Source of the DNA: Halalkalicoccus sp. CG83
Lineage (GTDB): Archaea > Halobacteriota > Halobacteria > Halobacteriales > Halalkalicoccaceae
Reading direction: 5' to 3'
NCBI RefSeq assembly: GCF_037081715.1
Contig: NZ_JAZDDH010000001.1
Coordinates: 1,736,001-1,800,000, forward strand
DNA: 64,000 bases
In this document: positions 32,950 through 35,332 of the stretch, one piece after another
Layout of the letters: each line of letters opens with the position of its first letter
Position numbering within the stretch: position 1 is the first letter of the stretch
The notes under the pieces: model-generated
What the model was told of the DNA's origin: nothing
The model's input: the letters and a program-made list of their open reading frames with translations, nothing else
Database searches by the model: none
Made by a program: the position numbers and the translations under genes

Positions 32950-32989
32950 GTAGTCGGGTTTTTACGTACGGGCTCCGCTGATGGAGGAT

Positions 32990-33286
32990 ATGGCCACGGA
33001 CGAGGTTCCGGAGCAACTCGCAGCGCTCGCCGAGAAGATAGCGACCGAGTACCGCGACTCCGAGTACGACATCGCTCGCGCGCTCGCGGCGACCGAGGAC
33101 GGCGAGGGACTGTCGATCGAGGAGCTCGCAGAGGAGACGGGCTACACCGAGCGGACGATCAAGAAGCGGGTCGGGACACTGGAGGAGGAACTCGGGGGCG
33201 ACCCCCTGCTCCGGCGCGACGAGGACGACCGTCCGGTGCTTCACCCGGAGCTCGCGGCGGCGATCAGGGCCCGCGACGAGTCGTAA
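32990..33286 (+). CDS. Small HTH DNA-binding protein
   Basis: A 98-residue soluble protein with helices DEVPEQLAALAEKIATEYRD and a wHTH (SIEELAEETGYTERTIKKRV, then TLEEELGGDPLLRRD). Conserved in type among haloarchaeal small regulators; the target is unknown. I start at 32990 because GGGTTTTTACG at about 32956-32966 would place the transcript start close to this ATG; the ATG at 32981 is the alternative. Confidence 0.65.
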   Translation: MATDEVPEQLAALAEKIATEYRDSEYDIARALAATEDGEGLSIEELAEETGYTERTIKKRVGTLEEELGGDPLLRRDEDDRPVLHPELAAAIRARDES

Positions 33287-33349
33287 CTCCGCGACGAGTC
33301 GGTTTCACGAGGCGTGGAACCGCCCAACGAGAGCGGCCCGCGGGCGTTC

Positions 33350-33636
33350 TGGGTGATCCATCGACGGATCACCGGGTACGAAAGGATGGCGGAACACCGC
33401 CATCGAGAGTGCGATGGGGAGGGGTGGCCTCTGACAGGCACAACGCCGTCGTTTCGACGGCAATCGTCCCGACGAGCGCCGATCATATATGCTTTCTGTC
33501 TTTCGAAACGTGAAGTTAACGGGATAGGTGAGGTAGAGACGGTGGCTCGCAGGTCTGGATCGAAAACACAGGAACGGGGTCGTAGTAGGTGACCCCGGCT
33601 CATCCACCCGTGGTTTTCGCTGGCGGCCACCAGCAC
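33350..33636 (-). ncRNA. Candidate structured RNA with five hairpins
   Basis: The 510-bp gap between the HTH gene and the transporter holds five perfect stem-loops: 33352-33373 (8-bp stem GGTGATCC), 33385-33404 (8-bp stem GATGGCGG), 33445-33461 (7-bp stem GCCGTCG), 33575-33597 (7-bp stem CGGGGTC) and 33619-33634 (5-bp stem GCTGG). A TATA-like element at 33658-33665 read on the minus strand would start a transcript near 33636, just before the first hairpin; a second, symmetrical CATATATG lies at 33484-33491. I see no convincing protein frame. It does not show the conserved elements I know of RNase P or SRP RNA. The strand is uncertain. Confidence 0.3.
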
Positions 33637-33799
33637 GAGGAACTGGACGGTCCAGGGTTATATAGATGCCTGAATGACAGCCGGTTACAAGAGTCGCGTC
33701 CGGCGGTCGTCGCCGACGGCAGCCGTATGACGCGATGATATTCGTCCATTTTATACGCGGCGGCCGCGCGGTGTTCCGTATGTACACGAACGGTTCCCG

Positions 33800-35332
33800 G
33801 TGGCGGTCCGCGTGGTGAGCTCGAGCGTTGCGCTCTCGCTGGTCGCGGTCACGGTGGTGGCCGTGACGGTGATCGGGCTCCGCTACTCGCGTGGAGAGGT
33901 CGGCTCCGTCGAGGAGTTCATCACGGCGCGCGACTCGATCGGAACGCGGACGATGGTCGCGACGCTGCTCGCGTCGAACCTGGGCGGATGGATCCTGTTC
34001 AGTCCCGCGGAGGCCGGCGCGGCGTTCGGCGGCATCACCGCCATCGCGGGTTACGCGCTCGGTAGCGCCGGCGCGAGCCTCGTCTACGTCCTCGTCGGCC
34101 CGCGGATCCGGCGACTGATCCCGCGGGGTCACACCCTCACCGAGTACGCCTACGTCCGGTACGGGCCCGCGATGTACGCCTACATCCTCCTCATCAGCCT
34201 CTGTTTCATGTTCATCTCGCTGGCCGCGAACATGACCGGCATCGTCGGCGTGCTCTCGCTGGTCGCCGGCGTCCCCGCCTGGCAGACCGCGGGGCTGGTC
34301 GGCACGTTCGTCCTGGTCTACACCGCCTACGGCGGGCTGAAGGCGAGCATCTTCACCGACACGGTACAGCTCGTGGTGGTCCTCCCCCTGTTGGGGCTCG
34401 TCTTCGCCGTCACCCTCCTCTCGCTCGGCGGTCCCCGCACGATCGGATCGACCGTCGCCGCGTCCGACCCCTCGCTGCTCGACCCCGGGTTCGTCCCCGG
34501 CCTGCTGTTCGGCGTCTACATCGTGGTCGCCATCGCCGGCGCCGAACTGCTCAACCAGGCGTGGTGGCAGCGCGTCTACGCCGCCCAGGACGAGCGGACG
34601 GTTCGGCGCTCGTTCGCCGTTTCCGGGCTGGCGGTCGTCCCGATCGTCGCCGTCGCGGGGCTGTTCGGCGTCGCCGCGGCCGGCTACGGACTCGTCGAGG
34701 GGCCGGGCGACGCCAGCGTCGCGCTCTTCCGACTGGTCCTCGAGACGCTGCCCGAGTGGGTCGGTCTCGTGGTCGTCCTGCTCGCCGTCCTGCTCGTCAT
34801 GAGTACAGCGGACACGCTGTTCAACGCGATCGCGAGCGTCGTCACCGCGGACCTGCCGCGGCTGCTCGACGATCCCTCGGAGCGCTCGCTCACCTTCGCC
34901 GCGCGCGTCACGACCGTTGCGGTCGCGCTCGGGGCGACCGTTATCGGGGCGCGTGCCTACAGCGTCCTCGCGCTGTTCCTCACGGCCGACCTGTTCGCCG
35001 TCGCGGCGGCCGTCCCGCTGGTCTACGGGCTCTACTCGATGCGGGCGACCGAGAGGGGGATGCTCGCCGCGAGCGTCTCCGGGCTGGTCGTCGGGATGGC
35101 GTTCCTGCCGACGGTGCACGGCCCGCTGTCGGCGCTGCCCGTCCTCGGAGGGCTGGTGCCCGCGCCGTCGTTCCTGTGGGCGTTCCTCGGTGCTGCAGCG
35201 GTCTCGGCCGGCCTCGCCGTGCTCTCGGCGCGGCTCACCGACGCGGGCTTCGACCCGAACAGGCTCTCCCGTGAGATCGGTCTCCTCGGTGCCGGGCCGA
35301 CCGAGACGCACCTCTCCGAACGCGACGACTGA
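33800..35332 (+). CDS. Sodium:solute symporter (SSS family)
   Basis: A 510-residue integral membrane protein of the SSS family with about 13 helices, related to proline/pantothenate/urea-type Na+ symporters. Typical are the EEFITARDSIGTRTMVATLLAS start of helix 2, LTEYAYVRYGP, and the Na+-site helix STADTLFNAIASVVTAD near residue 335. The solute is not predictable. GTG at 33800 is the start; ATTTTATACG lies at about 33752-33761. The C-terminal ~30 residues are polar and cytosolic. Confidence 0.85.
   Translation: MAVRVVSSSVALSLVAVTVVAVTVIGLRYSRGEVGSVEEFITARDSIGTRTMVATLLASNLGGWILFSPAEAGAAFGGITAIAGYALGSAGASLVYVLVGPRIRRLIPRGHTLTEYAYVRYGPAMYAYILLISLCFMFISLAANMTGIVGVLSLVAGVPAWQTAGLVGTFVLVYTAYGGLKASIFTDTVQLVVVLPLLGLVFAVTLLSLGGPRTIGSTVAASDPSLLDPGFVPGLLFGVYIVVAIAGAELLNQAWWQRVYAAQDERTVRRSFAVSGLAVVPIVAVAGLFGVAAAGYGLVEGPGDASVALFRLVLETLPEWVGLVVVLLAVLLVMSTADTLFNAIASVVTADLPRLLDDPSERSLTFAARVTTVAVALGATVIGARAYSVLALFLTADLFAVAAAVPLVYGLYSMRATERGMLAASVSGLVVGMAFLPTVHGPLSALPVLGGLVPAPSFLWAFLGAAAVSAGLAVLSARLTDAGFDPNRLSREIGLLGAGPTETHLSERDD

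Follow-up and report, generated by a model that had tools for sequence, protein, structure and literature searches.

A probable minus-strand non-coding RNA conserved in Halalkalicoccus, with hints of an RNA-to-RNA pairing network in haloarchaea

In bacteria, an RNA that carries the target word of a small RNA (sRNA) could titrate that sRNA and so act as a sponge, and the C-rich sRNAs of Staphylococcus pair through their C-rich tract. The sRNAs of haloarchaea are numerous but mostly species-specific: one study, built on an H. volcanii sRNA deletion set, reports 22 of 27 as restricted to H. volcanii and three of the 27 genes as conserved in more than ten other haloarchaeal genomes (PMC3956466). 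Two further Haloferax volcanii sRNAs are reported as intergenic RNAs for which base-pairing targets were proposed, namely sRNA132, said to be confined to Haloferax (PMC6560208), and s479, linked to CRISPR-Cas processing (PMC8155600). Here we describe an intergenic locus in a 64,000-nt stretch of Halalkalicoccus sp. CG83 (hereafter the window) that appears to encode a comparable RNA, the likeness to sRNA132 and s479 being one of description.

The hairpin-rich gap and its predicted RNA

The gap at 33287-33799 is flanked by genes for a small winged-HTH protein and for a sodium:solute symporter (33800-35332). The initial annotation had described it as dense in hairpins, and denser in clean stems than the rest of the window, and both descriptions stood up to counting. 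It contains eight non-overlapping perfect hairpins with stems of at least 5 bp (shuffled mean 3.9, reached by 7 of 200 shuffles), in four of which the stem reaches 7-8 bp (mean of the shuffles 0.28, 0/200), and when 167-nt windows were slid over the 64 kb (n = 1277), two of the four that held three stems of at least 7 bp fell on the RNA site. The proposed extent of 510 bp was retained in part. The long-stem excess sits in 33301-33467, with three stems of at least 7 bp (0/500 shuffles), and about two thirds of the gap falls outside the RNA; 33502-33799 holds just one such stem (82/500 shuffles have as many), and its 5-bp stems are slightly enriched (5 against a shuffled mean of 2.1; 11/500). 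Of the checks that the initial annotation had suggested, folding against shuffles gave a clear signal for the minus strand of 33301-33467 (z -3.57, 0/200) and a slight one for the whole gap (plus strand, z -1.82, 3/100; minus strand, z -1.23, 12/100), while an Rfam scan yielded no known family that explains the gap, with no covariance-model match at gathering score and sub-threshold matches only (E 2.3 and 3.9).

Taken with the comparison among congeners given below, these results argue well for a real non-coding RNA, about 165 nt long, on the minus strand of the gap, with transcription from that strand inferred (Table 1). An RNA on the plus strand was rejected, as the TATA-like element, the 5' hairpin and the T-run of the relatives all fit the minus strand. 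The earlier choice of promoter, a TATA element at 33658-33665, had to be replaced, since it lies outside the DNA matches of the genus and the conserved element is the one at 33485-33495; the outermost hairpin, previously taken as the transcript start, is likewise not within the conserved part. AAAG[TC]AT[TA]TAT starts exactly 34 nt ahead of the 5' hairpin in all seven loci. The earlier view that no protein is convincing was borne out: differences in the length of the C-rich tract are not all multiples of three and break reading frames, which argues against a protein, and Pfam matched neither of two ORFs in the gap (92 and 131 codons). Antisense to the symporter gene, a frame of 668 codons also crosses the gap, and a 12-codon ATG frame on the plus strand (33780-33818) overlaps the likely symporter gene start.

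Table 1. Features of the locus (window coordinates)
Feature	Position	Strand	Remarks
Structured non-coding RNA (predicted), ~165 nt	33301..33464	-	covariance-model match 33309-33466, 118.7 bits; 3' end uncertain in this copy (no T-run)
TATA-like promoter element (putative) AAAGCATATAT	33485..33495	-	conserved in 7/7 loci
5' terminal hairpin GCCGUC..GACGGC	33445..33461	-	7-bp perfect stem; pairs kept in 7/7
Box UGUCAGAGGC	33427..33436	-	single copy in the 64-kb window; invariant in 7/7
C-rich tract CACCCCUCCCC	33416..33426	-	length variable in relatives
Hairpin GAUGGCGG..CCGCCAUC	33385..33404	-	8-bp perfect stem; kept in 7/7, invariant
Hairpin GGUGAUCC..GGAUCACC	33352..33373	-	8-bp perfect stem; one pair changed on both sides in 2/7
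Weak counterpart of the relatives' last hairpin and outer stem	33316..33349	-	several pairs broken in the window copy
Four hairpins with 7-8-bp stems	33352-33373, 33385-33404, 33445-33461, 33575-33597
Winged-HTH neighbour gene	32981..33286	+	tail to tail with the RNA, adjacent in 6/7 loci; outside the RNA

Two known classes were considered and set aside. For an rRNA guide (C/D or H/ACA), comparison of the first 90 nt with the 16S/23S loci of the same genome revealed no Watson-Crick stretch of at least 10 nt, guide-RNA box motifs and kink-turns being assessed by eye only. A fluoride (crcB) riboswitch was raised by two nearby CrcB genes; Rfam matched nothing in the window except two tRNAs, and the RNA faces away from the symporter gene and converges with the HTH gene.

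Conservation and covariation within the genus

When 59 genomes were searched at the DNA level, all six congeners matched over window positions 33364-33502, and each of the seven Halalkalicoccus genomes examined carries one copy of the RNA. In an alignment of the seven sequences that was fitted to the structure, 97% of cells are paired (92% after shuffling) and eight pairs show changes in both partners (2.3 on average after shuffling; 0/500 shuffles); sliding the partners by 1-3 columns lowered the covariation score from 0.158 to at most 0.059. Covariation among homologues, another check named in the initial annotation, is thus present, and its reading of the gap as a structured minus-strand RNA, transcription being presumed, is upheld by these compensatory changes. 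Three of the eight compensated pairs belong to the outer stem and come from the window row alone, in which that stem loses two more pairs; the remaining five are independent of the window row and sit in two 3' hairpins, four of them in the relatives' last hairpin. The core of the seven loci is nearly invariant and its helices never vary, and the 5' hairpin and the hairpin at 33385-33404 show no covariation because their pairs are invariant. For the two relatives tried, of the six, fold z values of -7.86 and -7.23 were obtained.

The window copy has diverged from the others. Its outer stem is partly broken, the apical loop of the hairpin at 33352-33373, C-rich in the six relatives, is not C-rich here, the run of three to four T that follows the last stem in the same six is absent, and its model score is the lowest (118.7 bits vs 159-187). 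The C-rich tract is predicted to be mostly unpaired in all seven copies (mean unpaired probability of the tract with its preceding C, 0.67 in the window copy); in the box, UGUCA is predicted open, as is most of the tract, and GAGG paired. At loci L002-L006 an inverted repeat, AATRC-ACAAA-GYATT, was seen by eye some 35-45 nt upstream of the 5' hairpin; at four of these loci it overlaps the TATA-like element, and at L006 it nearly does. It was not seen in the window copy and is a possible regulator site.

Searches beyond the genus returned little. An order-wide model search of 286 genomes matched eight, the seven of the genus and one chance hit, and laxer filters on 40 relatives found nothing beyond the genus better than E 0.03. 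That hit, in G213, scored 28 bits with the core absent and was dropped as a wider homologue. Short DNA matches outside the genus came from four genomes in one search and 14 in another. Scanning 84,980 species for the exact core matched H. paucihalophilus, a contig from an archaeal metagenome and two contigs of Bacteroidales, of which we take the last two as chance, and a search of plasmids, phages and viral contigs gave no match of the window RNA. In three genomes of a sister genus the HTH gene is present and a window-type RNA was not found; a G/C-rich hairpin stretch, similar to the window RNA in appearance and unlike it in sequence, directly follows the HTH gene at three sister-genus loci (L050, L051, L052).

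The box word and its complement in haloarchaea

The box UGUCAGAGGC in the RNA core led to the 12-mer TGTCAGAGGCAC, which occurs in 155 copies against seven of the reversed word (40 genomes searched, 25 with a match) and, within the genus, in 104 against three. The window box is followed by CAC, one C more than in the common 12-mer. We surveyed 60 distinct 12-mer sites in 52 loci, chosen by availability out of the 155. Seventeen span the start codon of a gene of the PadR family (AUGUCAGAGGCAC), five are a two-hairpin RNA on the other strand that carries the complement of the word (the antibox), and 38 lie elsewhere. Among these 38, ten have a flanking stem of at least 5 bp (mononucleotide-shuffled flanks: mean 2.8, maximum 9, 200 runs) and four a 5' hairpin of at least 6 bp ahead of the word (shuffled mean 0.8, maximum 4).

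Both box-start PadR genes tried carry PF03551 (Pfam), and genes of this kind were taken as leaderless because many of them have a TATA-like element some 30 nt upstream, as judged by eye. A motif-blind sample of plasmid PadR genes (16 genes, from 60 listed of 266 records) offered mixed support for the box rule: eight begin with MS and the other eight are without that N-terminus, and among the eight MS starts ATGTCA occurs in five, TGTCAGAGGC in three and the full 12-mer in two, the remaining three having ATGTCG, all in Halocatena. In 19 such PadR-type genes TCA accounts for one of 86 serine codons in the rest of the gene, vs 101 of 772 in 53 plasmid genes; at codon 2 TCA was found in two of 15 among the plasmid genes, one of the two being a PadR gene. 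A set of 27 contigs (12 read, 15 by script) contained no PadR start of the box type. PadR-type genes of several families were also seen to open with near-identical DNA, ATGTCAGAGGCACA (L137:420, L138:391 and similar).

In 50 kb of an annotated plasmid, H. jeotgali has five copies of TGTCAGAGGC, four intergenic and one at a PadR start. Similar stretches with several box copies near PadR genes were noticed on plasmid-like contigs of two Halalkalicoccus genomes (L144, L154), some of the copies forming divergent pairs about 230 bp apart, and in H. jeotgali a multi-box stretch also lies near a VapC toxin gene.

A scan of 392 genomes of the order for the pattern GTGCCTCTGACA-N(4-34)-TTGCCCG gave matches in 42, from 18 of 95 genera (reversed control 0), once per genome except for two genomes with two. 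The two-hairpin arrangement of GUGCCUCUGACA and UUGCCCG (class II; 30 loci, L155-L184, with L156 from the same genome as the window) may represent an RNA family of its own, for which Rfam gave no match. Its second stem, around UUGCCCG, varies in sequence while pairing is kept, and reaches at least 8 bp with 13 of 30 own arms vs 6.4% of swapped arms; a looser measure, at least six enclosing pairs, was weak (29/30 own vs 76% swapped). A first stem of at least 5 bp, typically GCCGG..CCGGC, encloses the antibox in 23 of 30 loci and is barely longer than with swapped arms (5.5 vs 4.9 bp). Arm swaps were used in place of MAFFT with RNAalifold, which returned only four pairs, in our view through misregistration of arms that differ in length. 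Two class II-like or box RNA queries gave no match against plasmids. The genome of the window has six 12-mer sites: a single class II match (C1:2074788) with a fold unlike that of most relatives, a terminator-like hairpin whose loop contains most of the antibox and which is followed by TTTTCG (C1:882487), two box-bearing PadR starts (C2:254620, C3:126691) and two others (C1:803597, C1:1350281).

A search for the box together with CTCCCCAT beyond the genus found three genomes against five for the reversed control, and one of the three (G201) proved to be an antibox RNA on the opposite strand, so box plus C-rich tract beyond the genus is not demonstrated by that search; six viral contigs with this combination were set aside. 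Within the genus, scanning the seven genomes for the complement of the C-rich tract gave 28 places, seven of them the RNA itself and 21 non-self (reversed control 7). Two of the 21 (L078, L082) have UGUCAGAGGCAC just before a C-rich tract, L078 resembling the window RNA in its order of TATA-like element, 5' hairpin, box and CCCCUCCCCAUC; TGTCAGAGGCAC in L084 lies more than 1 kb from the scan site and was left out of the count. At another locus (L075, ~1500; G004:C1:2311954) inspection by eye showed a TATA-like element upstream of a T-run and of a hairpin that has a long, C-rich loop, perhaps another small C-rich RNA.

A possible pairing network and its alternatives

The presence of the box and of its exact complement in separate RNAs points to a possible, so far unrecognised network of RNA-to-RNA control, in which the window RNA may be a box-bearing target or sponge, a reading to which we give somewhat less than an even chance. 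A stand-alone RNA of about 165 nt would be made leftward from the TATA-like element, with the 5' hairpin, the core of box and C-rich tract, and further hairpins in that order. Its box would pair with antibox RNAs. These, for their part, would block PadR-type mRNAs by masking the start codon (AUGUCAGAGGCAC). The window RNA would either draw the antibox RNAs away or be itself their target. By comparison of genomes, the fold, the promoter spacing, the single copy per genome and the box and antibox elsewhere in haloarchaea speak for this proposal. In its wider form, that one 12-nt word underlies a haloarchaeal network, with GUGCCUCUGACA antibox sRNAs silencing leaderless PadR mRNAs at the start codon and being titrated by box sponges, the window RNA serving as the chromosomal, genus-wide sponge of Halalkalicoccus, the idea is doubtful. 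If true, a pairing word across many genera on regulator start codons would amount to a seed-and-target rule open to direct testing in a model strain.

UGUCAGAGGC of the window RNA is exactly complementary to GCCUCUGACA of class II, and the extra base of the window box (UGUCAGAGGC-C-AC) leaves 10 contiguous perfect pairs, not 12. Predicted duplexes of the box segment with two antibox loci of the same genome reach -27.5 and -26.5 kcal/mol. For the full-length hybrid with the genome's own class II RNA, 107/200 shuffles are as good, which leaves it without advantage over shuffled RNA; the hybrid with the second antibox locus is matched by only 3/200 shuffles. The pairing argument rests on the shared exact words, not on hybrid energy; against it, GAGG of the box is predicted to be paired inside the window RNA, and the own class II copy is predicted to fold unlike most relatives'.

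The RNA might instead serve a different function. If it were an sRNA acting in trans, with the C-rich tract pairing to G-rich sites such as Shine-Dalgarno sequences of mRNAs and the box only a part of the fold, this would agree with the mostly unpaired tract of all seven copies and with the second C-rich loop of six relatives; we consider it unlikely, since among the 21 non-self complement sites (7 in the reversed control) no gene recurs in the seven genomes, one site (G001) is near a plausible gene start, 17 nt before it, the second loop is lost in the window copy, and the spread of the box goes unexplained. Conservation of the core far beyond the needs of pairing, and the occurrence of the box in several structural settings, would also suit a protein scaffold or ligand whose box is an RNA-protein binding site common to other RNAs, yet this would not account for the conserved exact complement in the two-hairpin RNA of 42 genomes and is distinctly improbable.

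That TGTCAGAGGCAC is a DNA operator, for example of a PadR-type regulator, placed just past promoters and included in RNAs by accident has a similarly small probability in our view: the word does stand at the start of PadR genes and in both orientations, but it is not palindromic, its distance from the promoter varies (the PadR start codon vs 25-26 nt into the window-type RNA), and in class II it precedes a second stem that changes sequence yet keeps pairing. Least probable by far is cis-antisense control of the convergent HTH gene through an overlapping read-through transcript. The tail-to-tail order in six of seven loci fits it, but the RNA as defined stops before the HTH stop codon, the HTH match of the seventh genome is on another contig (a fragmented assembly), and in the three sister-genus genomes mentioned above the HTH gene is present but the searches revealed no RNA of this kind.

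Placed among known systems, the window RNA, box and antibox are unreported in the titles and abstract openings of the open-access matches listed. One of the three conserved H. volcanii sRNAs (PMC3956466) could be the antibox RNA. Set beside the sRNA sponges of bacteria, the window RNA is archaeal and a predicted case. Its exposed C-rich tract is similar to that of the Staphylococcus C-rich sRNAs, for example IsrR (PMC9410917); IsrR is bacterial, whereas the tract of the window RNA gave no convincing targets in the seven genomes and the word conserved in this RNA is the box.
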